A DNA stretch of 22,654 nucleotides, from positions 1-22,654 of the IMG/VR virus record IMGVR_UViG_3300005537_000067; one strand, 5' to 3'. A program made the position numbers and the translations under genes. The notes under the pieces are model-generated. The model searched no databases, had not been told where the DNA came from, and was given only the letters and a program-made list of their open reading frames with translations. The stretch comes from a virus. Shown here one piece after another: positions 771-22,496 of the stretch (the first letter of the stretch is position 1; each line of letters starts with the position of its first letter).

Positions 771-1527
771 CACTTCTCCGGCGAGCGGGCTCTGAGGATT
801 TTCATGAGGGCGGCATCGGCGGCGCGGATCATCCGGACGAGGACGTCGAAATCCTCATCTTCGATGCCGTGCCGCCGCGCATAGCGGTCGATGGATGACC
901 AAGGGATCGGGGATATGCCGCTGAAGGATGGCGGCCGATCCGTGGAGAGTTCTTGAAACGCCCGGTAATATTTCTCGACGCCGGGCGTCGGCTTGGGCCG
1001 GTGAAGAATGGGATTTCCCTTGTCGAGGGGGTCATCCACCAGCCATTTGCGGAAAAGCTCTATGTCCTCGCCGTATTCTTCTTGCCATTCGACGAGGCCG
1101 ACGAGTTTTTTTCCGTGGCCTTGGTCGCGGCCTTGCGATAATTGGCGGCGTTCATGGAGAACGTCACGACGCGGCCGCGCAGATCCTCGAATTCCTTGTC
1201 CAGCAGCATGGCCTCGGCCAGCGCGGGCGAATAGGCCACCTCGGTCTCGTCATTGGGATCGACCAGGCCGGTGATGCCGCCCCAGCCGACCAGCACGCCG
1301 CCGGCGATGCCCTTGACCATCAGGCCCTCGGATTCTTCGTCGGTGAGCTTCACGCCCAGCTCGATCTTGTCGCGGTAGGGCTCGCGCAGCTGCTCCAGCA
1401 GCGCAGCATGCTTCTTGTTGCCCCAGCGGGCGACCAGGAAATAGGCGCCGTCGCCCAGGTCCATCTTGGCGCCGCTCACCGTCGCATCGACGTTAAGGGC
1501 GAATTTCTTCTTGAGGTTCAAAGCCAT
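770..1527 (-). CDS. Tail assembly chaperone, long form made by -1 frameshift
   Basis: This is a probable fusion product analogous to lambda gpGT. Translation starts at 1527, reads the first frame to the slippery A_AAA_AAC (1105-1111), shifts back one base and continues in the -1 frame to the stop at 770-772. That gives 252 residues: 1-140 from the first frame, then KLVGLVEWQEEYGEDIELF and onward to the end RARSPEK. The second frame is open continuously from the slip site to 770. Without the shift it has no convincing start: the only candidate is a GTG at 1039, which lacks a clear ribosome-binding site and would discard about 90 open bases. In the family the long form recruits tape measure protein and tube subunits during tail assembly and is absent from the virion. 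The fusion is inferred from sequence, not shown. Confidence 0.72.
1060..1527 (-). CDS. Tail assembly chaperone, short form
   Basis: A 155-residue protein beginning MALNLKKKFALN. I assign it as the lambda gpG-like chaperone mainly from position (after the tail tube gene, before the tape measure gene), its length, and the slippery heptamer near its 3' end. The zero-frame tail after the slip site (from N141) is a low-complexity Ser/Asn/Lys stretch ending KNTART, as expected when most information lies in the frameshifted product. The start has AAAGGAA about 10 bases upstream, inside a leader that carries three copies of CCCCGACAA. A strong hairpin separates it from the tail tube gene, so its expression is probably set below that of the tube protein. 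Confidence 0.72.
   Translation of the reverse strand: MALNLKKKFALNVDATVSGAKMDLGDGAYFLVARWGNKKHAALLEQLREPYRDKIELGVKLTDEESEGLMVKGIAGGVLVGWGGITGLVDPNDETEVAYSPALAEAMLLDKEFEDLRGRVVTFSMNAANYRKAATKATEKNSSASSNGKKNTART
1105..1111 (-). other. -1 programmed frameshift slippery site A_AAA_AAC
   Basis: Seven consecutive A residues on the minus strand (1106-1112) followed by C give codons GAA AAA AAC in the chaperone reading frame, an exact X_XXY_YYZ heptamer. A one-base backward slip continues straight into the downstream open frame. An AAGG sequence lies about a dozen bases upstream and could act as a Shine-Dalgarno-like stimulator, as in dnaX. I see no convincing downstream pseudoknot. Confidence 0.72.
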
Positions 1528-1643
1528 TTGTCGGGGTTCCTTTGTCGGGGAGTCGGAAATTGTCGGGGCGGAAGAAACGGGCGGCCGGCGCCCGACGCGC
1601 CGGCCGCCGCTCGGGCCGAAGCCCTACCGAGCTTTCGCCCGGG
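1528..1643 (-). promoter_or_regulatory. Non-coding gap with repeated CCCCGACAA leader motif
   Basis: This 116-base gap between the tail tube and chaperone genes holds the strong hairpin listed separately at 1580-1608 and then a leader with three direct copies of CCCCGACAA (minus strand, about 1529-1537, 1543-1551 and 1560-1568). The last copy abuts the chaperone start codon. A similar leader (AAGGAAACCCCGACAATG) precedes the 136-aa gene at 7736. The motif covers the initiation region and could bind a regulator or reflect a duplicated ribosome-binding region; its role is unknown. Confidence 0.5.
1571..1608 (-). terminator. Intrinsic terminator or attenuator after the tail tube gene
   Basis: A perfect 12-bp all-GC stem (1580-1591 paired with 1597-1608) closes a 5-base loop. 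On the minus strand it is followed by GTTTCTTC, a moderate U-rich tract. It lies 36 bases past the tail tube stop codon. It would cut or reduce transcription from the abundant tube gene into the chaperone and tape measure genes, unless an antiterminator such as the phage NusG homologue overrides it. Confidence 0.62.
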
Positions 1644-3080
1644 TCACGCGCCGTAGGAGGCGATGCGGTTGATGCGCATCTGCTTGCCGGAAACGCTGTC
1701 GTACTGGGTGGTGAAAGTGCCGGTCAGCTTGTAGTCCTGGTTGATGCCTGAGACGGGGGTCTTGGCATCGGTGAACCGGCCCGCCGGCATATCGACCGCG
1801 TAGGCATTCCCGGCGGCGTCCTTCAGGACGAACCATAGGCTGGACTGCGTACCGGCCAGGAACTTCGAATAGATGCTCTGGCCCTGGGTCGCGGACATAT
1901 AGATGCCGAACTGCAGGGTGGCATTGAATTGGCCGTCGCGGACGTCCGCATCGCCCAGCACGCCCAGCGCCATAACGTCGCCCAGGTTGTTCTTGATCAT
2001 CAGGGTGGCGTCGCTCATCTTGCCGGACGCGACGCCGGCCTCGTTGATGCGGACCACGCTGGTCACCGCGTTCATGATGCTGTTGTTCGGCGCCGCGATA
2101 GGCGTGCCGGTGCTGGCGGTCGCGGTGCCGGTGGAAACGCTCATGCCCTTCCAGGTCGTGGTCGCCTCGAGGATCTGGCCGGGCGTCATCTTCAGCTGGA
2201 ACTGGTCCGGATAATGCCCGGTGAATTCGCGGGTGAAGCTGATGTCTGGGTGGTCTTCCTCGACGGTGAAGCTGTTGCGCGTCACGCCATTGGCGATGGT
2301 GTCTCCCCACAGCAGGCGGATGGCTTTTCCCGCGCCCGCGTCGGTGGTCCAGCCGGTGGGCAGGTTGTCGCAGGTCAGCGCGTGTGCGGCGATGCCAGTG
2401 ATGCGGACATAGTCGTTATTGGCCGCGGTGGCGAACTGATTGGCCGCCTGCGAACCGCCGACCTTGACCACCAACCCGACCGACAGGCCCAGCGTGGTGA
2501 AATCGAGCGTGGTGCTGGCCAGGCCGGTCGAGGTCGCGGTGATGTCGCCGGAAGCGCCCTCGTAGCCGATCACCTTCAGCGTCTTGCCCGCGCCGGCGGT
2601 TTCCGCCGTGCTGGGCGCCGTTGCGGTGGTGATGGTGGTCCCTGTCGAGGACGAGGCCTTGAACACACCGTCATTGCCCGAGTTGGTGAAGCCCGAGGCA
2701 TAGAGCAGCATATTGGCCAGAACCGCCGCGCCGCCCGAGGGCACGGTGAAGACGTTCGGGGTGCCGGCGGTAACGGCCACATTCGAGAAATTGGTCGTCT
2801 GGTTCCAGGTCGCCGCGTCCTGAAGGGTCGCCGCCAGGATCGGATCTGCGACCCCATAGGCGAATTCATAGACCAGCGTTCCGCCCGGCTTGCGGTCGGT
2901 CAGGATATTGTCCTGCACGGTGCGATCGGTGCGGATGCCCTGGCTCACGGTGAAGGTCTGATTGGCTTCCAGCGCGCCACTCTTGGCGGTGATATTCTGG
3001 AACGCGACCGCGGGGATCTGGTTCTGCGTCGCCTCGACGGCGTAGCGGAATTGGGTCTGCGAAGTGTTGCTGAAGGACAT
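1644..3080 (-). CDS. Major tail tube protein
   Basis: 478 residues. It forms the stacked rings of the siphophage tail tube. The N-terminus (MSFSNTSQTQFRYAVEATQN), the block RTDRTVQDNILTDRKPGG at about 50-67 and the C-terminal half with IANGVTRNSFTVEEDHPD at about 262-279 match my memory of the Phage_tube_2-like tail tube family. It is longer than a minimal tube protein because the middle holds two Gly/Thr/Ala-rich beta-type segments (about 110-175 and 191-260) that look like divergent copies: SGNDGVFKASS ... TAGAGKTLKVIG against AANNDYVRITG ... DAGAGKAIRLLWG. These may be surface-exposed domains. A clear AAGGAG lies 8 bases before the start. A GC hairpin follows the stop, consistent with high expression and controlled read-through. 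Confidence 0.82.
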   Translation of the reverse strand: MSFSNTSQTQFRYAVEATQNQIPAVAFQNITAKSGALEANQTFTVSQGIRTDRTVQDNILTDRKPGGTLVYEFAYGVADPILAATLQDAATWNQTTNFSNVAVTAGTPNVFTVPSGGAAVLANMLLYASGFTNSGNDGVFKASSSTGTTITTATAPSTAETAGAGKTLKVIGYEGASGDITATSTGLASTTLDFTTLGLSVGLVVKVGGSQAANQFATAANNDYVRITGIAAHALTCDNLPTGWTTDAGAGKAIRLLWGDTIANGVTRNSFTVEEDHPDISFTREFTGHYPDQFQLKMTPGQILEATTTWKGMSVSTGTATASTGTPIAAPNNSIMNAVTSVVRINEAGVASGKMSDATLMIKNNLGDVMALGVLGDADVRDGQFNATLQFGIYMSATQGQSIYSKFLAGTQSSLWFVLKDAAGNAYAVDMPAGRFTDAKTPVSGINQDYKLTGTFTTQYDSVSGKQMRINRIASYGA

Positions 3081-3116
3081 TTTCTCGGCTCCTTGATGCG
3101 CTTACGGCAAGGCGGG

Positions 3117-3136
3117 AGCGTCCGTCGGGAGACGCT
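3117..3136 (-). promoter_or_regulatory. Hairpin in the leader of the tail tube gene
   Basis: AGCGTC (3117-3122) and GACGCT (3131-3136) form a 6-bp stem with an 8-base loop, inside the 113-base gap (3081-3193) upstream of the tail tube start. There is no U-tract. It may be a 5' stability or processing element. Nothing else is recognisable in the gap apart from the ribosome-binding site AAGGAG. Confidence 0.3.
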
Positions 3137-3193
3137 GGGTAAGGCCGAGCCGAAGGGCGCGGCAATTGCTGGGGGATTGGTCTGAGGCCTGGA

Positions 3194-3667
3194 TCAGGCG
3201 TCGTAGTCGTACCAGAAGCGGATGACCGCGGCGGCGGTGTACCAGGATGCGTCTTTAGGACTATTGGCGGCCGGCGTCGCATAGGAATTGAAGAACAGCA
3301 GGTGGCCGGCGCCGCTGGTATCGAGGGCGTGGCCGCGAAAGACCTGCGCTGCCTCGTCGAGCAGCTGCGAAAGCGCTGCCTTACCTTGGCCTGCCTGCAC
3401 CGCTGCGGTGATGATCACCTGGCCCGGAATGCGCCAGCGGCGCGTGCCGTTGTTGGCGGTCGAGATCTGGCCCAGCCCGGGCTGCTGGATGACGCGCAAT
3501 TCGACCCAAGGGCCGCCATTCTGAAAGCCGGCGCCGATATCTGCTGCGTTCAGATTATGCGGGTCGAAGGCGACGTTTTCCCATGCCGTCGGCGTGGCCG
3601 TCCATGCCGCTTGCCACATGGCGATGATTGAGGCGTCGATATCCTCGGCGGGGATCGCGTTGGTCAT
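3194..3667 (-). CDS. Probable tail terminator protein
   Basis: 157 residues. It resembles DUF4128/tail-terminator-type proteins: a helical start with AMWQAAWTATPTAWENVAF, then GGPWVELRVIQQ at about 51-62, a Gly-rich beta hairpin with RWRIPGQVIITAAVQAG, and QLLDEAAQVFRG near 101-112. This is the pattern of proteins that cap the tail tube and fix its length. It lies between a gp10-like neck protein and the tail tube gene, where tail terminators usually sit. It follows its upstream neighbour by 13 bases. Assignment rests on pattern and gene order, so a related connector role is possible. Confidence 0.65.
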   Translation of the reverse strand: MTNAIPAEDIDASIIAMWQAAWTATPTAWENVAFDPHNLNAADIGAGFQNGGPWVELRVIQQPGLGQISTANNGTRRWRIPGQVIITAAVQAGQGKAALSQLLDEAAQVFRGHALDTSGAGHLLFFNSYATPAANSPKDASWYTAAAVIRFWYDYDA

Positions 3668-3680
3668 GAAAAGGCACCGA

Positions 3681-4169
3681 TCAGAAGGGGATCGCCGCCA
3701 TGCTCTGGTCGGCCAGGAACTGCCAGGAATAGCCGGGCGCGAAAGCCGACTGGATCATCGCCGCGGCCAGGCCGAAGGGCTCGACATGGCTTTCGACATC
3801 CTCGGCATAGGGCACCGCGTCGGCGATGTAGACTATCTGGAACGCTTGGATGCTGGCCAGGGAATCGACCATTCCGTCGACATCGGCAGGCGGGTAGGGA
3901 TTGGGGTGGATCGGCCAGGGGCCGGGATTGTCGGGTGCTGCTGTGTCATCGGGTGCGCCGACGGCCACGGTTACCGAGGCGCGGAACTGGCCGGACCAGT
4001 AATCATTCGGCTGCTTGTCGTTCCAGGTCGCCTTGGCGGTGACGATCGCCTCGGCGGCGGCGCGGGCGACCTCGAGCTGCGCTGCGACGACGGCCGGCTT
4101 GACGACCTTTTCCATCCAGTCATGGCAGGCGGCCTCGAATTCTTCGGCGGTTGTGACGGTGACGCCCAT
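3681..4169 (-). CDS. HK97 gp10-like neck/tail-completion protein
   Basis: 162 residues. The layout matches the HK97 gp10 family: an N-terminal helix (residues 6-50), YWSGQFRASVTVAVGAP at about 57-73 (compare 'G.LR.S..'), then a beta segment with VYIADAVPYAEDVESHVEPFG at about 113-133, the equivalent of the 'N..pYA..vE' motif. These proteins sit at the head-tail joint or help tail completion. The ribosome-binding site TAGGAG overlaps the stop codon of the gene upstream (TAG at 4177-4179), so the two are likely translated in tandem. Confidence 0.62.
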   Translation of the reverse strand: MGVTVTTAEEFEAACHDWMEKVVKPAVVAAQLEVARAAAEAIVTAKATWNDKQPNDYWSGQFRASVTVAVGAPDDTAAPDNPGPWPIHPNPYPPADVDGMVDSLASIQAFQIVYIADAVPYAEDVESHVEPFGLAAAMIQSAFAPGYSWQFLADQSMAAIPF

Positions 4170-4640: not shown

Positions 4641-5582
4641 TTATCGCGCTTGGACGTCGAAGACCGCGATATCGGTGCCGGCATATTCCGGCTTGCAGGC
4701 GATCACCGAGCGCGCGACGCCGTCGATGATGATCTGATCGGTCAGCGACGGTTGCGGGATCTCCCGGCCATCCTCGGACAGCGGCGACAGCATGACGCGC
4801 AGGTCCGCGATCTTAACCACGCCGTTCGCCATCATCGAAGCGTCGTAGCCGCTGATCAGCGCCTTCACCGGATAGTCGGTGGTGGTGCGCGTCGGGTTCG
4901 GCCCGCTGCCGGTGGTGATCTGGCGGTACGTCAGCAGCTTGCCGATCAGGCGGATGACCGTCTGGTAATGCTTGATGACGCTGTCCGACAGGAGGGTGGT
5001 CTGCTGGATCGAGCAGCGCCAGCCCAGGTCCGACAGCTCGGCCGCCGTCATGAAATACTGGCGCCCGAGGTCGTCGGTGACGAGGTCCGCGACCTCCATG
5101 GTCAGGTCGGGCACGGCGGGCAGCAACATCCACCAGTGCGGCGTCGACGGGCTGCCCGCGATGTCCTCAAGCGGGGCGTTGCCGCGCGTGCTTTCCACCA
5201 GGATCGAGGCCGGCCAGCCGACGGCGACCGGGTTTGTTCCGCCCTGAGTGATCGACACCACCCGATTGCACCCCACCGCCAGGATCGGCAGCAGCGGCTG
5301 CTTGGCCGCGATGAAGAACGTCCCGGGCGCGCCGACCAGATAGTCGCCGACATTGACCTGGCTGCCGTCCAACACCGCTTGCCATGTTGCCTGCCCGTAG
5401 GTGTTTGGCTTTCCATAAGCGTAGGAGGTGGTGAAGCTGGCCGACAGCTGCGCGGTCGCATTGGCCGGGTCGATCGGGTTCAGCGCGCCGTTCGGGCGAT
5501 AGCCCTGGAACGGCAAGCCGGTATGCGCCGCCGCTTTGCCGAGCCCCTTGTAGACCAGCGATTGGAGGCGGGTGCCGTCCAT
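4641..5582 (-). CDS. Unrecognised virion-region protein
   Basis: 313 residues, function not recognised with confidence. The N-terminal part (MDGTRLQSLVYKGLGKAA, then GLPFQGYRPNGALNP) and the later block with LPAVPDLTMEVADLVTDDLG look like minor structural proteins I associate with alphaproteobacterial siphophages. No enzyme motif or membrane segment is visible. The C-terminal part (about 230-313) is beta-rich with MLSPLSEDGREIPQPSLTDQ and ends in a domain like those of head-tail connector proteins. The start overlaps the stop of the Ntn-hydrolase gene (TGATG at 5580-5584), which favours this ATG over one 48 bases upstream. Context suggests a virion component or assembly factor. Confidence 0.62.
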   Translation of the reverse strand: MDGTRLQSLVYKGLGKAAAHTGLPFQGYRPNGALNPIDPANATAQLSASFTTSYAYGKPNTYGQATWQAVLDGSQVNVGDYLVGAPGTFFIAAKQPLLPILAVGCNRVVSITQGGTNPVAVGWPASILVESTRGNAPLEDIAGSPSTPHWWMLLPAVPDLTMEVADLVTDDLGRQYFMTAAELSDLGWRCSIQQTTLLSDSVIKHYQTVIRLIGKLLTYRQITTGSGPNPTRTTTDYPVKALISGYDASMMANGVVKIADLRVMLSPLSEDGREIPQPSLTDQIIIDGVARSVIACKPEYAGTDIAVFDVQAR

Positions 5583-6142
5583 CAGTGAGTGACCTTCGGA
5601 GCCCGCTCCGCGCCCAATTCGGCAGCCCAAAAGCCGTCGATGGACGGAAAATAGCGGTGCGCGATGTCGATGGTCACTCTCATTGCGTTCAGAGGCGCGA
5701 CGCTGACGGCGGTCAGGGCGTCCAGCGCACCATAGGCAACCTCATCACCTTGCCCGATGCAGCACCAGCGGCCGACGGATATTTCGCAGGCATCGCCAAA
5801 GCTGTTGCAGCGGAATACGCGCCCTGGACGCGCCAGAATGAGGTCCGAATCGTGCTCGGGAAACTCACCCTCTTTGATAACGGGCTTCATGCCTCGCGCG
5901 ACATGCGCCTGCCAAATCGCCGCGACGATCTCGATGGGCTCCTCGCCGCCGGAAATGACCTTTGCCGCATCATCGATGGCAAACCGCACAAGCGCTGCCC
6001 CAGCGATGCCAACCATCCAGCCATGCAGCGGAATCCACTTCTGCATGACGACCGGATGGCGCCAACCGAAGCCGTTCTGCAAGACGGTATCAGCGCCAAT
6101 CCACGTCGTCTCGCCATCGGTATAGGCCATGCAGAGGGTCAT
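5582..6142 (-). CDS. Ntn-hydrolase (proteasome beta/HslV-like peptidase fold)
   Basis: 186 residues starting MTLCMAYTDG. The first 60 residues align by eye with HslV and proteasome beta subunits: Thr2 at the position of the catalytic Thr1, Asp18 in WIGADT at the position of Asp17, and Lys35 in VMQKWIP close to Lys33, followed by HGWMVGIAGAALVRFAIDD, equivalent to the 'iaGf.G...Da' segment. If Met1 is removed, Thr2 would be the N-terminal nucleophile. The ATGA overlap with the MuF-like gene (6139-6142) fixes this start and hence Thr2. It sits inside the head-morphogenesis cluster, and no other prohead protease is visible in the window. It could be a virion or maturation peptidase, or a non-proteolytic relative; substrate unknown. 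Confidence 0.66.
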   Translation of the reverse strand: MTLCMAYTDGETTWIGADTVLQNGFGWRHPVVMQKWIPLHGWMVGIAGAALVRFAIDDAAKVISGGEEPIEIVAAIWQAHVARGMKPVIKEGEFPEHDSDLILARPGRVFRCNSFGDACEISVGRWCCIGQGDEVAYGALDALTAVSVAPLNAMRVTIDIAHRYFPSIDGFWAAELGAERAPKVTH

Positions 6143-6924
6143 GCGTCGGGGTCCTCGGTGTCGATCGTTGTGTGACAGCGGCAATTCGGATGCGCGGCGG
6201 GCGCAGGCAGGCCGCCAGGGAAAAACTCATCAATGCCGACCTTCACGCCGTCCAACGGGCCGCAAATCGAGCAGACCCGTTCGTCGCCGGCCGTGTTCCA
6301 GGTCTTGGTGACTCGGTAATTGGTCTGGCGCTTCATCTGGCCACCGGCGAGCACTTGACCCAGCTGCGCGCCGCTCCATAGGGCATCCGATGCGATGATT
6401 GCCGAGCGCTCCTCGATTACACCCTTGGCGCTCTTCCGCGCCGCCGTTACCAGCGCCGCGTCGCTCGATCCGGTCGACGCCATGCTGGCCAGCGTCGTCA
6501 GGATCGGCGAAATCTGGTTGGCGTTCAGCCCGGCCAGTTCCTGCATGATGCCGTCGCGCGCCTCGGCGGAAATGCCGGCCGATTGCGCCCAGGTCACCAC
6601 CTGGTTGACGGCCTTTTTCGTCGACGCCACCAGATCCGCCACCATCTTGTCGCGCTGAGCGCGCTGGGCGTTGACAGTGGCGGGGTCGAGGCTGTCGAAG
6701 CCGAGATAGACGGCCTTTGCCGCTTCGTCGCCGGCCGTGGTCGCGGCATCGAGCGCTTGTCCCAGCCGATCAGCGAATTCCGACCAGGTGCTGGGCATCC
6801 AATAGAGCATGAGCGTCATACGCGGCTGCAGGAACAGCATCGCCGCAGCGACCGCCTTCTCGACCTGGCGCTGGCGCTTATCGGCTGCCGCCTTAGCCGC
6901 GCGCTGGTCGCTGGTGAGCACCAT
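6139..6924 (-). CDS. MuF-like minor head (head morphogenesis) protein
   Basis: 261 residues. The N-terminal three quarters are helical and Ala-rich. The C-terminus has the phage Mu F/SPP1 gp7 signature: WNTAGDERVCSICGPLDG (209-226), then EFFPGG and HPNCRCHTTID, with Cys218, Cys221, His245, Cys248, Cys250 and His251 as likely metal ligands. The family joins the portal during head assembly and may be injected. Here it is separated from the portal gene by scaffold, coat and two small genes, whereas MuF usually follows the portal directly. The chosen ATG lies 2 bases after the upstream stop codon. Confidence 0.8.
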   Translation of the reverse strand: MVLTSDQRAAKAAADKRQRQVEKAVAAAMLFLQPRMTLMLYWMPSTWSEFADRLGQALDAATTAGDEAAKAVYLGFDSLDPATVNAQRAQRDKMVADLVASTKKAVNQVVTWAQSAGISAEARDGIMQELAGLNANQISPILTTLASMASTGSSDAALVTAARKSAKGVIEERSAIIASDALWSGAQLGQVLAGGQMKRQTNYRVTKTWNTAGDERVCSICGPLDGVKVGIDEFFPGGLPAPAAHPNCRCHTTIDTEDPDA

Positions 6925-6926
6925 GA

Positions 6927-7325
6927 TCAGCTGCGCGTGACGGTGTTGCCGCCCTGAAGCATAGGCCCAGGCGCCACGCCGAGGAACGAGCACAGCTCCA
7001 GCCTGGCGTAGCGGTATAAAGATTTGCGCTCGGCGAGTTCCTGCGGGTTGCGGGTCCAGATGCCAGCGACGGCGGTGTCTTGGTTGGCGGTTGTGCCGTA
7101 GATCGCCTGTTCCAGCGTAGCCAAATTGGCGAGGTGGATATTGATCAGCGTGGTCTCGTTCTCGGGCCGCAGGTTGGTGAGGATGCTTTCCAGCGTCTCC
7201 CACACGCCGGGCAGCGTCCAACCATACGAGAAGTCGCGCGAGGCATCGACCGTATGGTTGGCGCCGACCTGCGGATAGCCGGCATAGCGCCGGACGTCAG
7301 CCAGCTGCTGATCGGTAAGGGCCAT
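6927..7325 (-). CDS. Probable head-tail connector protein
   Basis: 132 residues. It begins MALTDQQLADVRRYAGYP, a helical start common in head-tail adaptor proteins that follow the coat gene. The rest is mainly helical with ETLESILTNLRPENETTL in the centre and LYRYARLELCSFLGVAPGP near the end. No catalytic motif is visible. The gene follows the 136-aa gene with no gap (TAAATG). I infer an adaptor-type role from size, helical content and position; I do not recognise the exact family. Confidence 0.58.
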   Translation of the reverse strand: MALTDQQLADVRRYAGYPQVGANHTVDASRDFSYGWTLPGVWETLESILTNLRPENETTLINIHLANLATLEQAIYGTTANQDTAVAGIWTRNPQELAERKSLYRYARLELCSFLGVAPGPMLQGGNTVTRS

Positions 7326-7791: not shown

Positions 7792-8922
7792 TTAGCCCAG
7801 CAGGATCGCCGAATGCTCCGGCTTGATATTCGACGCGCCATAGGCGATCGAAATTTCGTACCGGACGCGGCGATACTGCTTGTACATGGCCACTTCGAAG
7901 GCCAGGCCGGAACGCGGATCGGTCAGCATCATCCGATCGTCGGCCATATCGCCCTCTACCGGCAGGGCCGGCGCGCGGGTGGCCAGCACCAGGGCGGCGC
8001 GGGCGAAGGCCAGATTGGCGGTGAAGCTGCCGCCGACGGTGACGGCGGTGCCGCTGTTGATGGCGGTCCGCAGGCCGGGCGCGGCGATCACCACATTGCC
8101 GCCGGTCAGGGCGGTGGTGACCAGGTACTTGTTGGTGTCGCCGGCGAAGGTGATGAAGTTGCCGGCGAGGATCGTGCCGGTGCCGGTCTGGACCGGGATG
8201 GTGGTGGCGCCCTTGGCCAGCGCGCCGTTGGTGACGTAGTTGGCGCCAGTGCCGGCGGTGACGGTATTGACGCCGGCCGACTCACGGATGTTGAAGCCGT
8301 CCAGCTGGAGCAGGGTGCCCTGGGCGCGGAGCTCGGTGGTGCCGGCTTCGTTGGCCTTGGTCAGCTGCGCCAGGCTGCGCATCTTGGTGCCGGCCGTGGT
8401 GTTGATCACCAGCTGCATGTCGGACAACGGCGCGCCGTTGTCGGCCAGGATCTGGCGCATGTTGGCGGGATCGGACAGGTCCGAGGCGAACGGCGTGGTG
8501 CCGGCGGTCCCGTAGGCACGCGAGGCGCTGACCGCCAGACCGCCGACGAAGCTGTCGATCTCGTTGGTCAGGGTGCGGAACGCCTGGGCGATCTGGTTGG
8601 TCCGGATGTTGTTGTAGCCCGGGCCGGAATTGACGCCCTTCTGCTCCTCGCCGGTCCAGCGGAACGGCACGGTGCGCGCCTTGGTGATGACGATCTGGTT
8701 GTTGCCGATCGTCTGGTCTCCGTCATCGGGCGGCAGCTGGCCGGGCGAGATGTCCTCGGCGGCGGCGGCCGGCGCGACGAAGCTGCGCACGACCTGGTTC
8801 AGCGCGGCGCGGTCGGCGCTGGCGTCCAGGGTTACGGAAGGGATGAAGCCCACGAGTTCGCGGGAAACGACGTCCAGCGCCTCGAACAGGTCGGGCACCA
8901 GGCTGGTCAAAGTATTGGCCAT
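7792..8922 (-). CDS. Major capsid protein, P22 coat-protein family
   Basis: 376 residues. It builds the icosahedral shell (HK97 fold). The N-terminus MANTLTSLVPDLFEALDVVSRELVGFIPSV is typical of the P22 gp5-like family, as are the segments TVPFRWTGEEQKG, IAQAFRTLTNEIDSFVG and NMRQILADNGAPLSDMQLVIN. Residues about 225-295 form a Gly/Thr/Val-rich beta segment inserted in the fold. A ribosome-binding site CTGGAG lies 7 bases before the ATG in a 135-base leader. No N-terminal delta domain or protease-cleaved extension is evident, so a separate scaffold (the gene just upstream in transcription) is expected, and is present. Confidence 0.85.
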   Translation of the reverse strand: MANTLTSLVPDLFEALDVVSRELVGFIPSVTLDASADRAALNQVVRSFVAPAAAAEDISPGQLPPDDGDQTIGNNQIVITKARTVPFRWTGEEQKGVNSGPGYNNIRTNQIAQAFRTLTNEIDSFVGGLAVSASRAYGTAGTTPFASDLSDPANMRQILADNGAPLSDMQLVINTTAGTKMRSLAQLTKANEAGTTELRAQGTLLQLDGFNIRESAGVNTVTAGTGANYVTNGALAKGATTIPVQTGTGTILAGNFITFAGDTNKYLVTTALTGGNVVIAAPGLRTAINSGTAVTVGGSFTANLAFARAALVLATRAPALPVEGDMADDRMMLTDPRSGLAFEVAMYKQYRRVRYEISIAYGASNIKPEHSAILLG

Positions 8923-9057: not shown

Positions 9058-9840
9058 TTAGTCGGTGACCTTGCCGCCGTCCTTGAGGAAGGCGCGCTGG
9101 GCGTTGGGGTCCATGCCTTCGAACTGCTGGCGATTGGCGGTCTTGGCGCCGCCGGCGCCGCCGGAACCACCCGCGCCGCCGCCCGAGGCGCCGGAGCCCT
9201 TCACGATCTGGTCGCGGAAGGGATACGAGGCGACGATGGTGGACAGGGCTTCGTCGAGGTCGGCGATTTCGCCGGGGTTTTGCCGGCTGAAGATGCGCTG
9301 GCCGTTGGCGTCGTAGCCGACCACACGGCCATCCTCGACCTTGAAGTGGCTGCCGAACGTCGCGCGCACCATCGGGGCGGGCACAGCGAGGTTGTCGGCG
9401 ATGAATTTGGAGCCGCTGAAGGCATAGCCGATGGTCATGTCGGTGAGTTTGTCCGCCAGGCCGTCGCGCTCTTCCACGACCGGCTTGTACTTGGCCTCAA
9501 CCTGCTCGAGTTGCTGCTGGAAGGCGGTCTTGGCCTCGTCCTTGACCCGTTGGACTTCGCCGGCATCGATCAGCTGCTTGCTGTCGAGATTCTGGAAGGT
9601 CTCCAGCGCCTTACGGGCGGCGGCCGGGTCCAGGCCCTCGAACACTTTCAGCTGCTCCAGCGCCTCTTCCTTGGCGACGCGATGCGTCTTGGCTTCGGCG
9701 TTGAGTTGCGTGATCTTGGCGACGGTCGCATTGGCGTCGAACGGGCTTTCGCGCCCGTCGTCGTGGATGTAGACGGGCATTCCGTTCTCGATCACGGCAT
9801 GGCCCTGATCGTCGATTTTCAGCTTCATGGGCATGGTCAT
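9058..9840 (-). CDS. Capsid scaffolding protein
   Basis: 260 residues. It has a short beta N-terminus (MKLKIDDQGHAVIENGMPVY), a long charged coiled-coil region (about 35-130, rich in Glu, Lys, Ala and Gln), a globular part with GYAFSGSKFIADNLAVP, a Gly/Ser/Ala linker near 215-235, and a C-terminal hook FEGMDPNAQRAFLKDGGKVTD of the type scaffolds use to bind coat protein. It resembles the DUF6651-type phage proteins found directly upstream of P22-like coat genes. The start is set by AGAAGGG about 5 bases before the ATG at 9840; two further in-frame ATGs (MPM, MKL) follow within five codons. Confidence 0.72.
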   Translation of the reverse strand: MTMPMKLKIDDQGHAVIENGMPVYIHDDGRESPFDANATVAKITQLNAEAKTHRVAKEEALEQLKVFEGLDPAAARKALETFQNLDSKQLIDAGEVQRVKDEAKTAFQQQLEQVEAKYKPVVEERDGLADKLTDMTIGYAFSGSKFIADNLAVPAPMVRATFGSHFKVEDGRVVGYDANGQRIFSRQNPGEIADLDEALSTIVASYPFRDQIVKGSGASGGGAGGSGGAGGAKTANRQQFEGMDPNAQRAFLKDGGKVTD

Positions 9841-9855
9841 CCGACCCTTCTGTTG

Positions 9856-9869
9856 TGCCGATCCCGGCA
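9856..9869 (-). promoter_or_regulatory. Small stem-loop upstream of the scaffold gene
   Basis: TGCCG (9856-9860) and CGGCA (9865-9869) pair around a 4-base loop, just upstream of the AGAAGGG ribosome-binding site. It may influence access of the ribosome or be incidental. Confidence 0.25.
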
Positions 9870-9901
9870 GTTGCACCCCTTCGCGTCCGCGTCAGGGCAG
9901 G

Positions 9902-13139: not shown

Positions 13140-13851
13140 AGAGATCCGCAGCCTCCTTGACGCTCATCTCGCTGGTCACGGTGGCGACCGGGCCGCCGCC
13201 CTTGCCGGTCAGTTCGATCTTGTCCTTGAAGGCGCCCAAGGCGCGGCCGATCATCTCGTGCAGCTTGGCGCGGTCCACGTGGAGCGCCTTCTGGCCGTCC
13301 TTGCCGATCTGCATACCCTCGTAGAGGCGGCGTGCGGCCGGGGAAAGCGTGCGGCTGTCCTTGAAGATCAGCCGGCCGATTCCCTCGCCGCGGCATTCCG
13401 GGCAGTCGGGACAGGGCGCGCGGGTGATGTCGTAATCCAGGCCGCCGATCTCGGCAGGCGGCGGCTCGCGCTCCTTGACCTTGTCGCTCAAGCGGTCGTA
13501 TTTGCGCTCGGCGGCGCGGAACTCGGCTGGCGTCCACTGATATTCATGGTCGACGCCCCAGCAGTACCGGCAGTTGACGCGGCGATACTCGACGATCTCG
13601 TTGATGTCGACGTTCGCCATCTCGACCCACTGGCGAACCAACTCGTCTTGGTCGATCTGCAGCCGCTCGATCCGCTCGGCTTTCAGCTCGGCGATCCGGG
13701 CCTGGATCTCGGGCCATTTCAGCCAGAGCGAGGCGCGGTTCCTCGCGCACTTCTCTGTGATGCCGACGAAGCGGGCAGCGCGCGCGCCATCGCCGTTGAA
13801 AGCGTATTCGACGCAGAAGGTTTCGTGCTGGGGGGTGAGGCGGCGGGTCAT
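13111..13851 (-). CDS. Terminase small subunit with Cys-rich insertion
   Basis: 246 residues. The N-terminus (LTPQHETFCVEYAFNGDGARAARFVGIT, residues 5-32) is the Terminase_2-type helix-turn-helix start, followed by the helical IQARIAELKAERIERL. The protein recognises phage DNA and hands it to TerL. Residues about 90-160 carry a probable zinc site absent from minimal TerS: Cys94 and Cys97 (CRYC), then Cys147, Cys150 and Cys153 (CPDCPEC). The C-terminal part has LHEMIGRALGAFKDKIELTG, the usual oligomerisation/TerL-contacting region. The start overlaps the stop of the NusG-like gene by ATGA (13848-13851), so the two are likely translationally coupled. Confidence 0.82.
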   Translation of the reverse strand: MTRRLTPQHETFCVEYAFNGDGARAARFVGITEKCARNRASLWLKWPEIQARIAELKAERIERLQIDQDELVRQWVEMANVDINEIVEYRRVNCRYCWGVDHEYQWTPAEFRAAERKYDRLSDKVKEREPPPAEIGGLDYDITRAPCPDCPECRGEGIGRLIFKDSRTLSPAARRLYEGMQIGKDGQKALHVDRAKLHEMIGRALGAFKDKIELTGKGGGPVATVTSEMSVKEAADLYAASLNPQK

Positions 13852-14594
13852 CGCACTGCCTCCTGAAAACGCCGCGACAATGGCTCGGCGTTTTCTTCGC
13901 CTGCCTTCGTCGTCAGCTTGGAGCGATCTTTTTGGTTCCGCCGACTATGTCCTTTGCGACTGGGCTTGTCAAGATGTTGGGCCTGCTTGCGCCTCTCAGG
14001 CCCTATATGCGCTTGCTCGATGCGGATCTCGGTGTCGCGGCCGAAGACGTTCAGCCGCACCGTCGCGGTCTCGTAGTCGGCGGCGGTGCAGACGCCGGCC
14101 CGGCCACCGAAAGGGCCGTCGATGATGTCGAGGATGAAATCGACCTGGCCGAAAGGATCGTCGACCGATTCGTCAAGGATCAGCTTGCCCTCTCGGAAAT
14201 AGACGTCGAGGGCCTTGGCGAGTTGCGCGCGGGAAACCTTGGCCTCTCCGCCCTGGGTGCAGCGCATGATCAGATCGATCAGGCTGTCCGGCACCGGCGA
14301 CGGATATTGGCAGTGCAGCGGCAGAATGCCTGCGACGCCCATTACCTTGGTCTTGATCAGCGTCCAATGCTGCGGCGCCTCGCGGCGGCAATCGGAGCGG
14401 AAAAACAGGTATCCGGGGAACATCGGTTCGATGTCCTCGACCAGTTTCAGGTTGCGGACCCGAGAGACCTTGAAGTGAGGCCAGAGCACCGGAAACGCCG
14501 GCCGCCCGGAGAACGGATCGGGCCGCGCCAGCTTCTTCGCCACGATCGCGTCGAATTGCGGCTCGACCGCCAGCACGTACCACCTGTCCGACAT
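13848..14594 (-). CDS. NusG-family transcription elongation/antitermination protein
   Basis: 248 residues. The NGN domain (about 1-110) begins RWYVLAVEPQFDAIVAKKL and contains MFPGYLFF (58-65), the RNA-polymerase-binding signature, then GVAGILPL. A linker rich in charged residues leads to a KOW domain (about 155-198) with IIDGPFGGRAGVCTAADYE and VRLNVFGRDTEIRIEQAHI, very close to the bacterial NusG KOW pattern. Residues 199-248 are a basic tail not found in housekeeping NusG. The start is chosen because GGGAG lies 8 bases ahead of it; an ATG 36 bases upstream lacks one. It is the first gene after a 142-base leader and overlaps the terminase gene. I infer a specialised RfaH/LoaP-like regulator of the late genes. 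Confidence 0.84.
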   Translation of the reverse strand: MSDRWYVLAVEPQFDAIVAKKLARPDPFSGRPAFPVLWPHFKVSRVRNLKLVEDIEPMFPGYLFFRSDCRREAPQHWTLIKTKVMGVAGILPLHCQYPSPVPDSLIDLIMRCTQGGEAKVSRAQLAKALDVYFREGKLILDESVDDPFGQVDFILDIIDGPFGGRAGVCTAADYETATVRLNVFGRDTEIRIEQAHIGPERRKQAQHLDKPSRKGHSRRNQKDRSKLTTKAGEENAEPLSRRFQEAVR

Positions 14595-14736
14595 ACCACA
14601 TCTCCCGCCTCTGGCCGGCGCTTGCCACAAGGGCTTGTGCCGGTGTATCTATTGGACTTCCGCACGAGCTAGCGGCTTTCTTGTCAGAGACTGGTGATGC
14701 ACACCCCGGCGCCGCGCCAACGGCGGCCGGGGTTTT
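14595..14736 (-). promoter_or_regulatory. 142-base non-coding leader upstream of the NusG-like gene
   Basis: This is the largest gap in the window and separates the replication genes from the late genes. On the minus strand it contains a GC-rich hairpin (14703-14733), CCGC/GCGG flanking an 8-base loop near 14658-14673, the short dyad CACAAG/CTTGTG (14626-14639), and the ribosome-binding site GGGAG. I see no convincing minus-strand promoter. It is a candidate loading or autoregulatory site for the phage NusG homologue. Confidence 0.5.
14626..14639. promoter_or_regulatory. Dyad-symmetric sequence, possible operator
   Basis: CACAAG-GG-CTTGTG is a perfect 6-bp inverted repeat with a 2-base centre, 32 bases upstream of the NusG-like start codon. 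In DNA it looks like an operator half-site pair; in RNA the loop is too tight for a full hairpin. It also falls between a TTGCCA (14622-14627) and a TATCTA (14646-14651) that could form a weak plus-strand promoter. Confidence 0.35.
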
Positions 14737-18292: not shown

Positions 18293-18483
18293 GGCCGTCC
18301 GTACCCCTTGCGCTCGGCCGCAGCCAATTCCGCGTGGGTGACCCAGACACTGAAATCGCGCAGCCGGATAATCGCGCGCGCCCGAATCCTGCCAGAGCCG
18401 TCGCAGCGCGTGAGGAAGTAATGACCCGACAATGTCGGTGGCTGCAGCGGCGCGGGATATCGATCCCGATATTCGTAATTCAT
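18289..18483 (-). CDS. Small unrecognised protein (64 aa)
   Basis: 64 residues, not recognised. It starts MNYEYRDRYPAPLQPP, followed by a compact beta-rich part, GHYFLTRCDGSGRIRARAII, RLRDFSVWVTH, and a helix AELAAAERKGYG. ATGA overlaps at both ends (helicase stop, dnaB start) show that it belongs to the replication operon. The beta content and basic residues would allow a nucleic-acid-binding fold, but this is a guess. Confidence 0.6.
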   Translation of the reverse strand: MNYEYRDRYPAPLQPPTLSGHYFLTRCDGSGRIRARAIIRLRDFSVWVTHAELAAAERKGYGRP

Positions 18484-19889
18484 TCCGCCGCCTGCCTTCC
18501 GGCGATGCCGGTTCTCTGCATAGCCCTGTCCACCCATCCCCGGTCGTTGATGCCCTTCAGTTCCGCGATGGCTTCCATATCCCGGCGCGAGGTCGCGATC
18601 TCGACGGCGTCCTGCAGCGTCATGGCGGCGACCACCTCGGGCCGGCGGCCGGCGATGCTGGGCAGGTGCCAGACGGTGTCCAACGCGCCCTTCTTGGCCT
18701 TGGGATAGCCGCAGCCGCAGCCGGGGCAGTGGTCGGCTTTCTCGTGCACGCGCCAGCAGCGGACGCAGCGGCTGGTCGGCGCGACCTGGCGCTCGAGGCC
18801 CTTCAGGCCGCCTTCCAGTGTCCATGGCCTGGGCGCGTCGTACATTCCATGCCGGGCCGTGTTCATGACTAGGTCGAGGATGACGGCGTGCGACTTGTCC
18901 GGGTGAGGCCGGAGAGCCCGGCCGATCTGCTGGATGAATAGCGAGGTCGACTCGGTCGGCCGCTCAAGGATCGCCACCGCGATTTCGGGGCAGTCGAACC
19001 CCTCGCCCAGCAAGCTCACGCTCGTCAGGATCTGGATGCGCCCGCTGGCGAGGCCCTTGACGGCGGCGGCGCGCTCGCGGGCCGACATGGTGCCGTCGAC
19101 GGATTGCGCGCTCCAGCCGGCGGCGCGGTAGGCGGCAGCCGAAGCCTCCGCCATCTCCACGGTCGGGCAGAAAACCAGCGCCGGCTGGCCCGGCGCATGG
19201 CGCGCATACCAGCGCCGGCCAATCACCGCCAGCTGGGCGCGCTGCACCTCGGCCGCCATGTCGGATAGCTTGTAGTCGCCGCCCAGCTTGGGCACCGAGC
19301 GCATGTCCAGATCGGTCGGCGGCGAATAAACGATCGCCGGCGCCAGGTAGCCCATGGCGGTCAAATCGCGGCTTCCGGGGCACTGCACGATACGGTCGAA
19401 ATGGTTGCCTTCACCCAGGCCGCGGCCGTCCAGCCGGAACCAGGTGGCGGAAAGGCCGACGCGTTGGGCCCGCACCGCGGCCGATACCACGCCATTCCAG
19501 CCGCTGGCGACGATGTGCTGCGCCTCGTCTATGAAGATGAAGTCGAGGCTTTCCAGCCAATCGCAGATGCCGCCGAGCCGGGCGGCCAGGGTGTCGACCG
19601 AGCAGATGTGGAACCGCTCGGGGCCGATTTCATGGCCGGGCATGACGCGGCCGTGCGGAATGCCATACAGGGCGGCGCGTTCGCTGGCCTGGTCGCACAG
19701 TTCCACGCGGTGCGCCAGCCACGCGCCGCGCTTGCCGGCGTCCAGCAGGGTCTTGACGACGGACATGCCCATCGTGGTTTTGCCACTGCCGACCGGGCTC
19801 TCTACCGCAACGCCGCGGCAGCCGCGCTGCAGATAGGCCAGGGTTTCAGCGACGGCGCGGGATTGGTAGGGGCGAAGCTGAACCGTCAT
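18480..19889 (-). CDS. DEAD/DEAH-box SF2 helicase with C-terminal zinc ribbon
   Basis: 469 residues. It is an ATP-dependent helicase or translocase of the SSL2/type III restriction-like group. The motifs run in order: a Q-motif-like RPYQSRAV (6-13), Walker A SPVGSGKTT (31-39), FIDEAQH (119-125), LSATWFRLDG (146-155), and motif VI QQIGRALR (320-327). After the second RecA domain lies a probable zinc ribbon, Cys375, Cys378, Cys388 and Cys391 (CVRC ... CPGC). The chosen ATG at 19889 overlaps the upstream stop (ATGA); an ATG 63 codons upstream would add an Arg/Pro-rich antisense-like stretch. It probably acts in phage replication or recombination; the partner is unknown. Confidence 0.87.
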   Translation of the reverse strand: MTVQLRPYQSRAVAETLAYLQRGCRGVAVESPVGSGKTTMGMSVVKTLLDAGKRGAWLAHRVELCDQASERAALYGIPHGRVMPGHEIGPERFHICSVDTLAARLGGICDWLESLDFIFIDEAQHIVASGWNGVVSAAVRAQRVGLSATWFRLDGRGLGEGNHFDRIVQCPGSRDLTAMGYLAPAIVYSPPTDLDMRSVPKLGGDYKLSDMAAEVQRAQLAVIGRRWYARHAPGQPALVFCPTVEMAEASAAAYRAAGWSAQSVDGTMSARERAAAVKGLASGRIQILTSVSLLGEGFDCPEIAVAILERPTESTSLFIQQIGRALRPHPDKSHAVILDLVMNTARHGMYDAPRPWTLEGGLKGLERQVAPTSRCVRCWRVHEKADHCPGCGCGYPKAKKGALDTVWHLPSIAGRRPEVVAAMTLQDAVEIATSRRDMEAIAELKGINDRGWVDRAMQRTGIAGRQAAE

Positions 19890-20065
19890 CGCGCCCCGCC
19901 CTCCAGGTCTATCCCGGCGCTCGCCGGCTCTGCATCCGGCGCCTTCATCAGCACCGAATGCCGGCCGTTGTGCGTGTCGGACAGGTCGTCGGATACGGTC
20001 CATCCCTTCGCCTCGTATTCGGCGCGGCGGTGGTGCGGGATGAATTGGAAGGTGCCTTCGGTCAT
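19886..20065 (-). CDS. Small unrecognised protein (59 aa)
   Basis: 59 residues, not recognised: MTEGTFQFIPHHRRAEY, then EAKGWTVSDDLSDTHNGRH and a variable acidic tail. It starts at an ATGA overlap with the methyltransferase gene and ends in another with the helicase gene, so it is very likely translated. A helix followed by 'AKGWTV' and 'THNGRHSVLM' strands suggests a small alpha-beta fold. A link with its enzyme neighbours is possible but unproven. Confidence 0.6.
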   Translation of the reverse strand: MTEGTFQFIPHHRRAEYEAKGWTVSDDLSDTHNGRHSVLMKAPDAEPASAGIDLEGGAR

Positions 20066-21054
20066 TCGGCAGCGCCATCGAATAGGCACTGCTGCGCCTT
20101 CTTGATGCTGCGCAGGTTCGCGATGGCCTGGCGGAAATAGCTCTCCTTCAGCTCGACGCCGATCGCCTTGCGGCCCATCTCGACCGCGCAATAGATCTCC
20201 GACCCGATGCCCGCGAACGGGCTAAAAACGACATCGCCGGGATTGCTCCACAGGTCGATGCAACGGCGGATCGGCGTGAGTTGGAGCGGGGAAATATGCC
20301 GCTCGTCGGCTTCCTCGCGGGCGCAGCGGAACGAGAGAACATCGTTTTGGTTGATGTCCATCCAGCAGGACTCGGCGTAACGCTGCCAGACCGCCACGGA
20401 GAACCAGGGATCGCCTGGGCGCAGCATGTCGACACCCTGGCTGTTCTCGTTGCGCAGAGGACCTTCCGGGGGCGCCTCATCGCCGTAATAGGCATCGAAT
20501 GGCCCCGAGATGGGTTCGGGGTTGTCGCCCGGCTTGCGCATCATGACCATGTAGTCGGCCGCCGCCATCCGGCTCATGGCGCTGTCCTTGCAGATCTGCT
20601 TGTGCAAGAGGCCGATCGCCTTGGATCGCTGCATGGCCGAGACAGGGTCCTTGCGGATCATCACCTCGGAGTGGAAGTGCATGCCTTCAGCCTGGAAGGC
20701 GCGGATGATCTCGCCGCGGAAATCGCGCATGCCGATGAACCCATCACGGGTCTTGCTGGTCGGGAGCTGCATGCAATGGGTGGCGATCAGCCGGCCCGGC
20801 ACGGTGGCGCGTACCATCTCCTTGATCAGGAAGCGGTAATGCTCCCAGAACACGGCCGCGCTCTTGTTATTGGAGATGTCGCGTGGGTTGTCGCTGAAGG
20901 TGTAGAGCGATTCGAACGGCGGCGAATAGATCGTGAAGTGCACAGAGTTGTCCGGTAGGCCGCGCGCCACGTCGACGCAATCGGCATTCCAGATGGTCCA
21001 GTCTTCGCCATGCTCTTGGGCCAGCACGAGGGGCTGATTCACGCCGCCATCCAT
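20062..21054 (-). CDS. Beta-class DNA methyltransferase (N4-cytosine or N6-adenine)
   Basis: 330 residues. It transfers a methyl group from S-adenosylmethionine to an exocyclic amine of DNA. Motif IV is SPPF (44-47), preceded by DNSVHFTIY; motif I is near the C-terminus, GDVVFSPFAGIGSE (273-286), followed by MGRKAIGVELKESYF. This order (IV, target recognition, I) marks the beta class. SPPF fits N4-cytosine best but N6-adenine cannot be excluded. The FSPFAGIGS motif differs from the common DPFxGSG. The start overlaps the SNF2-like gene by 16 bases, with GGAG 8 bases before it. It may protect phage DNA from host restriction. Confidence 0.85.
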   Translation of the reverse strand: MDGGVNQPLVLAQEHGEDWTIWNADCVDVARGLPDNSVHFTIYSPPFESLYTFSDNPRDISNNKSAAVFWEHYRFLIKEMVRATVPGRLIATHCMQLPTSKTRDGFIGMRDFRGEIIRAFQAEGMHFHSEVMIRKDPVSAMQRSKAIGLLHKQICKDSAMSRMAAADYMVMMRKPGDNPEPISGPFDAYYGDEAPPEGPLRNENSQGVDMLRPGDPWFSVAVWQRYAESCWMDINQNDVLSFRCAREEADERHISPLQLTPIRRCIDLWSNPGDVVFSPFAGIGSEIYCAVEMGRKAIGVELKESYFRQAIANLRSIKKAQQCLFDGAAE

Positions 21055-22496
21055 CTGGGAAGCTCCATCGGTTGAGTGGGTTCGTAGGTTGAGGCGGTCT
21101 GCCGGCCGCCGCGAATTTCTGCGGTTGAGAGGTCTTTCATGTGATCGACCATCGCGGCCATCATGGCGTCGTACTTCGCCTCCTTCTTCTTGAGGTTGGC
21201 GACGACCGCGCCCTCCAGTTCGGAAGCGATGAGCCAGCCGTGTACGTCCTGCTCCTGGCCGAAGCGCCAGAAGCGGCGGATCAGCTGGAACAGCTGCTCG
21301 AAGCTGTCATTGAGGCCGACGCAGACGAACTTGCGGCAGTGCTGCCAGTTCATGCCGCGCGAGGCGATTTTCGGCTTGGTCAGGATCATGCGCGGCTCGC
21401 CATGCGCGAACCCGATCAGGCGCTCAGCCTTCAGCTCGGGCTTGTCGCTGCCGCGCACCTCGACCAGGCCGGGCACCAGGGCGCGGATCGCATCGGCTTC
21501 GTCATTGAGGTTGCACCAGACCGCCCAAGCGTCGTCAGGGCCGTTCTCGGCGATGATCCTCGCCGCCGCCTCGGCGCGCTCTTTCACGGTGTCGCGGCGC
21601 ACGGCGATCCGGTCCTGCAGGGTCTGCGCGGCCACCGGGAACAACATCCCCGCCAGGGGGCGCGCTTCGGTGGCTACCGTGACCTGATGCAGATGCAGCG
21701 GCGGCAGATGATAGCCCGGCTCGTCATAGCCAAGGTCGTTCGGGTTCTGGATCACGACCGCCCAGGACGCCACCCAGCGCCAGAAGTCGGAGGCCGCGTG
21801 ACGCTTCAGCCGCCACTCTTCGCCGTTGGGGTCGGCGCGCACCGATCCCTCATGGACGAAATACATGGCGAGCATTTCCTTCTCGCTCATCACGTCGAGG
21901 AATTCGGCATGCGTTCCCAGCTCAGTGTAATCGTTCGGCGCCGGGGTAGCGGAGGCGCACAGCTTGTAGAAGGTCTGCCGGCAGGCGTCGGTGATTTCCA
22001 TTCTGGTCTTGCCCGACGCGTCCTTGATGATGCCGCTTTCGTCGAGGACGACACCGGCGAAGTCGGACGGGTCGAAGCTGGCCAGGCGCTCGTAATTGGT
22101 GACGACGATGTCGCCGGCCGCGGTCTTCTGGCTCTCGGCGTAGCGCACACCATCGAAGCCCCATTTCGGCGCTTCTTCCTCAACCGTCTGCCGGGCCACG
22201 CCGAGGGGCGCGAACACCAGAACACGACCTTGGGTTTCGTGCGCAACGGCGCGCGCCCAGGACAGCTGCTGCACAGTCTTGCCGAGGCCGGTTCCCTCGA
22301 ATAGGGCGGCGCGGCCGCGGCGTAGTGCCCAGCGCACGATGTCGCGCTGGAAGGGCTTTAGGAATGGCGGCAGGGTATTGCCGGGATCGAAGCCGATCGA
22401 CGGCGCGACGTTCTGCTTGCGCGCGAGGAAGGCATCATAGGATTCGGCCATGCGCTCGGGGTTGATGTCGAGCTCGGTGAGGAGGGCGGAGGTCAT
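21039..22496 (-). CDS. SNF2-like SF2 helicase/ATPase
   Basis: 485 residues. Motifs in order: LKPFQRDIVRWALRRG (46-61), Walker A EGTGLGKT (67-74), Walker B variant LDESG (151-155), ATPAPNDYTELGTHAEFLD (183-201), and motif VI QLIRRFWRFGQ (404-414), the typical R..R.GQ. It is the phage SNF2-like type commonly found next to methyltransferase genes. Helicase activity is not certain; many relatives only translocate on DNA. The C-terminus is helical, with KKKEAKYDAMMAAMVDHM. It lies between two methyltransferase genes, with ATGA overlap at its start (22493-22496). Confidence 0.86.
   Translation of the reverse strand: MTSALLTELDINPERMAESYDAFLARKQNVAPSIGFDPGNTLPPFLKPFQRDIVRWALRRGRAALFEGTGLGKTVQQLSWARAVAHETQGRVLVFAPLGVARQTVEEEAPKWGFDGVRYAESQKTAAGDIVVTNYERLASFDPSDFAGVVLDESGIIKDASGKTRMEITDACRQTFYKLCASATPAPNDYTELGTHAEFLDVMSEKEMLAMYFVHEGSVRADPNGEEWRLKRHAASDFWRWVASWAVVIQNPNDLGYDEPGYHLPPLHLHQVTVATEARPLAGMLFPVAAQTLQDRIAVRRDTVKERAEAAARIIAENGPDDAWAVWCNLNDEADAIRALVPGLVEVRGSDKPELKAERLIGFAHGEPRMILTKPKIASRGMNWQHCRKFVCVGLNDSFEQLFQLIRRFWRFGQEQDVHGWLIASELEGAVVANLKKKEAKYDAMMAAMVDHMKDLSTAEIRGGRQTASTYEPTQPMELPRWMAA

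Follow-up and report, generated by a model that had tools for sequence, protein, structure and literature searches.

The window, by which we mean the whole stretch of 22,654 nucleotides analysed here, belongs to a siphophage that IMG/VR also contains as a record of 62 kb; across the 12 kb that were compared, the two are 99.99% identical. Its virion genes follow one another on the minus strand, in the order terminase small and large subunits, portal, scaffold, P22-type coat, a short protein and the adaptor Ad1, then a MuF gene, a peptidase gene, an Hc1-type fusion, neck, tail terminator, tail protein and tail chaperones. The features that bear on the peptidase gene are as follows.

9058–9876, minus strand: separate scaffolding protein (phrog_784, phrog_206, DUF6651)
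7792–8922, minus strand: P22-type major coat protein (phrog_283, E 9e-96; relatives annotated as "P22 coat protein 5 family")
6927–7325, minus strand: head-tail adaptor Ad1, 132 aa (phrog_14539), the left border of an insertion slot
6139–6924, minus strand: MuF-like minor head protein (PF04233, E 3.2e-10; PHROG head morphogenesis), directly upstream of the peptidase gene
5582–6142, minus strand: proteasome-like Ntn peptidase gene, 186 aa, ATG start, no propeptide (translation, profile, PDB and fold matches)
6137–6139, minus strand: codon of Thr2, the predicted N-terminal nucleophile once Met1 is removed
6089–6091, minus strand: codon of Asp18, equivalent of Asp17
6038–6040, minus strand: codon of Lys35, equivalent of Lys33
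5999–6001, minus strand: codon of Gly48, equivalent of the oxyanion Gly47
4641–5582, minus strand: Hc1-type head-closure protein (phrog_14605, E 3.9e-49; phrog_161 Hc1, E 1.5e-8), directly downstream of the peptidase gene

The name Ad1 was taken from annotated relatives that carry Ad1 in the same position. Translation places the ATG of the peptidase gene at 6142 and its TGA at 5584–5582, and the protein reads MTLCMAYTDGETTWIGADTV...QKWIPLHGWMVGIAGAALV... The coordinates 5582–6142 of a preliminary description of this DNA were thus correct; the coding strand is the minus strand, a plus-strand reading of the same interval having been rejected. Both ends of the gene overlap its neighbours, the MuF stop with the peptidase start (ATGA) and the peptidase stop with the Hc1 start (TGATG). 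Given these overlaps, the peptidase would be co-expressed late with the head genes. The downstream gene encodes a fusion, with an N-terminal phrog_14605 domain at residues 2–122 and Hc1 at residues 208–314. In the window and in one related virus contig (L114) the MuF-like gene stands after Ad1, and in isolated relatives a head-morphogenesis gene directly follows the portal gene; the MuF-like gene appears to have been relocated together with the peptidase gene in the window and L114. Elsewhere in the window, the gene upstream of the terminase small subunit (13848–14630) matches a transcription antiterminator family (phrog_6386), and two helicase-like genes, both of phrog_16, flank a DNA methyltransferase gene at 18480–22496, perhaps a helicase-methyltransferase module that was split or duplicated.

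Searched as a single sequence, the window peptidase gave a weak signal: PHROG_1040 ("peptidase HslV family") was matched with E 7.6e-4, and Pfam yielded no match. Relatives were therefore gathered for a family profile. The resulting family has seven members, namely the window protein, those of two virus contigs that share the head cluster (L114 and L190), of another virus contig (L191) and of a prophage (L027), and those of Caldovatus sediminis (L193) and a proteobacterial MAG (L194/L030). Two further genome matches, G136 and G429, resemble methylmalonyl-CoA mutases and were discarded as relatives. In tblastn searches of 50,697 phage records the window peptidase found no match, even at E 10, and three of its relatives found none in the phage records either.

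Using the seven-member profile against the PDB, we found BPH (5ovu, E 2.6e-9; 5ovs, E 3e-7) and many HslV structures (E 2e-5 to 2e-2); a smaller family profile also matched HslV genes in dozens of genomes across the class. On these sequence grounds the likeness to proteasome/HslV peptidases is not a chance one. An AlphaFold2 model from a six-row alignment (pLDDT 82.5, pTM 0.81) superposes through residues 2–180 on proteasome-type Ntn folds, with Z 15–17 for BPH, HslV, Anbu and 20S beta subunits; the best superposition on a solved structure was that on BPH (Z 17.4, 169 residues, 3.0 Å). In addition to its sheets, the model contains helices at residues 52–59, 69–82, 133–145 and 150–164 and a final strand at 169–176 with nothing after it, which corresponds to the group I architecture of the proteasome-like superfamily (Fuchs et al. 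2021), an Ntn beta-sandwich with H1–H4 and without S12/H5. The N-terminal nucleophile of group I proteins, Thr or Ser, is represented in the sequence by Thr2, directly after the initiator Met, and the Asp17, Lys33 and Gly47 equivalents by Asp18, Lys35 and Gly48. Moreover, residue 2 of the superposed model falls on chain residue 1 (Thr1) of BPH and of the 20S beta subunits.

Conservation within the family is concordant with this assignment. Five of the seven aligned members have Thr as residue 2 and the other two have Ser, and none of the seven departs from Asp18, Lys35 or Gly48, even though most pairs are only 24–36% identical. The alignment of Thr2, Asp18 and Lys35 with the proteasome triad, proposed in the preliminary description, is therefore borne out, and Gly48 can be added as the oxyanion glycine. 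That description had also named two findings that would speak against an Ntn hydrolase, a predicted fold of another kind and a Thr2 equivalent not conserved in homologues; neither was obtained, since the fold is Ntn-like and matches HslV and its kin, and residue 2 is kept as Thr or Ser in 7/7 close members. It should be noted that the surroundings of the Ser2-type members (L193 and L194/L030) are without clear phage genes, so that the window clade may also include a chromosomal branch.

The same invariance bears on the possibility that the protein is an inactive relative whose Ntn fold serves as a binding or structural module. The window protein carries Gln (IGQGD) at the position of Ser in the GSG motif, a replacement that could lower activity, and it sits on a long branch (2.04). 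Moreover, two more distant members each lack one catalytic residue: the catalytic Asp is replaced by Asn (GGN) in L206, and the nucleophile Thr by Pro (Met-Pro) in L121. Both are probable pseudo-enzymes, judging from these substitutions. However, conservation of all four site residues (Thr2 or Ser2, Asp18, Lys35 and Gly48) across seven such divergent sequences argues against loss of activity in the close family, and we regard an inactive window protein as unlikely. Inactivity, which had been raised at the outset, thus probably applies to L206 and L121 and is less likely for the window protein. Estimates of dN/dS were saturated for L114 versus L190 and uninformative for L193 versus L194 (dN 0.41, dS 0.86).

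Proteasome homologues of phages have already been described (Fuchs, Alva and Lupas 2021, PMC8665760), and we placed the window protein among them with a tree of 49 proteins that covered the window clade, AAH-like proteins, HslV, BPH and PPH. The labels AAH, PPH and BPH were assigned by resemblance to the descriptions in that study (PMC8665760), and for BPH also through the PDB sequence. The window clade, including the divergent L206 and L121, stands on a branch of its own with support 98/94 (100/99 in an earlier tree that did not contain BPH). HslV, BPH and PPH all fall outside it, and AAH-like phage proteins form its sister group (98/93); the sister relation is tentative, since the branches are long. 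Profile-profile comparison likewise gave AAH-like proteins as the best match (E 3.8e-14), with HslV and PPH at about 6e-9. Taken together, profile, tree and predicted fold show that the gene encodes a putative phage-borne proteasome-like Ntn peptidase of the HslV/BPH/AAH group, which supports the identity first proposed for it.

With the AAH-type proteins of Geobacillus phage E3, Escherichia phage Eps7 and Moorella phage MTATph1 (PHROG_1040) the window protein shares a phage-borne, compact group I Ntn fold and an N-terminal Thr directly after Met, together with the Asp and Lys, whereas the window proteins form a separate clade with a motif of their own, WIGxDT...KW. BPH, the beta-proteobacterial proteasome homologue (PDB 5ovs/5ovt/5ovu), is the nearest solved structure by both profile and fold; in the tree, however, it joins HslV and PPH, the window protein is only ~17% identical to it, and BPH membership was rejected because the window protein falls outside the BPH group (own support 92/83). 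PPH proteins, the proteasome homologues of phages and their hosts, are also phage-borne, with the same catalytic residues, and they occupy the same slot between Ad1 and Hc1 in two related loci. They are ~140 residues long and without helix H2 (PMC8665760), whereas the window protein has 186 residues with helices 52–59 and 69–82 as H1 and H2 and lies outside the PPH clade, so that PPH membership was rejected as well. RPC proteins are said to be without H2 and to have a C-terminal extension (PMC8665760), in contrast to the window model, in which H2 is present and no extension is seen. Finally, HslV (ClpQ) shares the fold, the triad and a GxG motif ahead of helix H3, but the window protein falls outside its clade and below the HslV family models (NCBIfam models match one of the seven members, at E 0.01), and the phage record offers it no partner HslU; HslV membership was rejected on these points. 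The window protein is thus an additional member, in a separate clade, of the phage proteasome homologues described before. Among other HslV-like genes in phages, Aeromonas phage 2L372X has two adjoining genes that each carry the annotation HslV family peptidase, and Escherichia phage 121Q has the gene of an HslV-like protease next to a ClpP-like protease gene and a Sir2-like gene.

With a P22-type coat, the lack of a classical prohead protease in the head cluster, correctly remarked on in the preliminary description, is expected: in P22 the scaffold leaves the head without being cut and is used again, in contrast to HK97 and T4 (PMC3185693). Likewise, none of the head genes shown for the isolated relatives Acinetobacter phage qsb1 and HK639 is annotated as a protease, and in them Ad1 adjoins Hc1. 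A prohead-protease fold, herpesvirus-protease-like or ClpP-like, was rejected for the window protein on the basis of its positive superposition on proteasome-type Ntn folds and its lineage; no such fold occurs among the structure matches listed, which alone proves nothing.

To place the gene in its genomic setting, we compared 66 loci in which both Ad1 and Hc1 were located. The coat scan retained the best 80 relatives, and the 66 loci include L114 and L190, which were found via the Hc1 and peptidase searches, so that the following counts describe a biased sample and not a frequency. Ad1 and Hc1 lie within 16 bases of each other, with the slot empty, in 58 loci, and something is inserted between them in the remaining 8. 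In 5 of these 8 insertions the last gene, immediately ahead of Hc1, is proteasome-like. Three of these five genes belong to the window clade (window, L114 and L190) and two are of the short PPH type (L036 and L107). MuF stands immediately upstream, with the ATGA overlap, in two of the three window-clade slots (window and L114), and the L190 slot has the peptidase and no MuF, which weakens the idea that the two genes always travel together. The peptidase as the defining gene of this phage type was rejected, as it is missing from 58 of the 66 relatives. The recurrent use of the slot may stem from a site that tolerates insertions, from late expression, or from a genuine connection with the assembly of neck or head, and the retention of the gene directly upstream of Hc1 hints at some connection of the last kind.

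Outside head clusters, homologues were observed in other settings. The prophage homologue (L027) follows tail fibre, endolysin and holin genes, and in Jersey- and Kagunaviruses the homologue is located before the holins. In Eps7 it adjoins thymidylate synthase, DHFR and RNase H genes, further homologues lie in RNA-repair and NAD gene islands, and some relatives with the same fold adjoin terminase. For phage proteasome homologues, Fuchs et al. reported that hints of their function are limited and that their genomic context is not revealing (PMC8665760), and our literature search found no study of their function. These observations, namely the P22-type coat, the 58 of 66 loci without a gene in the slot, the lack of an annotated protease among the head genes of the isolated relatives and the homologues outside heads, speak against the proposal that the peptidase matures the head; the protein is probably not a prohead protease.

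We therefore favour, with a probability of roughly 0.7, an accessory threonine peptidase of the Ntn type through which a host or phage protein is processed or degraded late in infection. Methionine aminopeptidase removes Met ahead of Thr or Ser, so that Thr2 could act as the nucleophile without a propeptide: the host enzyme would take off Met1, and Asp18, Lys35 and Gly48 would complete the predicted site around it. No HslU was matched in the 62 kb phage record, itself possibly a fragment, and the host genome encodes HslVU; given the lack of a phage HslU, the peptidase probably works without an unfoldase of its own. It may assemble by itself into a BPH-like ring or act with a host partner, in an ATP-independent or host-assisted manner. 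The predicted substrate would be a specific host or phage protein that is cut late in infection.

A narrower alternative is a lineage-specific maturation step, in which the peptidase would process a virion protein such as MuF, the Hc1 fusion or the scaffold. Its position speaks for such a role, as the gene is flanked and overlapped by those for MuF and Hc1, immediately precedes Hc1 in three head clusters, and belongs to one of two proteasome-like clades that account for most Ad1-Hc1 insertions. However, L190 has the peptidase without an upstream MuF, the gene is missing from most relatives that share the coat, scaffold, Ad1 and Hc1, P22 heads mature with their scaffold uncut (PMC3185693), and homologues adjoin lysis and metabolism genes, so that we consider virion processing to have a small chance of being correct. 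That the protein substitutes for HslV by docking on host HslU and redirecting HslU-dependent proteolysis is very improbable. The HslVU of the host, the missing phage HslU and the HslV-like fold would suit this reading, but the tree position and the poor match to HslV models do not, and homologues of this sort had no AAA+ partners in the study of Fuchs et al. (PMC8665760).

Whichever protein the accessory peptidase acts on, the locus adds a distinct clade of proteasome homologues that Pfam and NCBIfam do not cover, and a recurrent position, directly upstream of Hc1, that is occupied by two clades. This position offers a testable clue as to whether the target is a virion protein or lies in the host. 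In a more speculative and rather improbable scenario, the Ad1-Hc1 site of P22-coat siphophages would have repeatedly taken up peptidases, from at least two separate clades, for trimming a minor protein of the head or neck (MuF or the Hc1 fusion) or for clearing misfolded head proteins; if true, this would to our knowledge be the first case of a proteasome-type enzyme taking part in virion assembly. Among the P22-coat relatives, PPH-type homologues were also observed at a different place: in seven loci (L046, L047, L053, L063, L073, L079 and L080) such a gene lies upstream of the portal gene, at about position 1500–4000 of the locus, and not in the Ad1-Hc1 slot.
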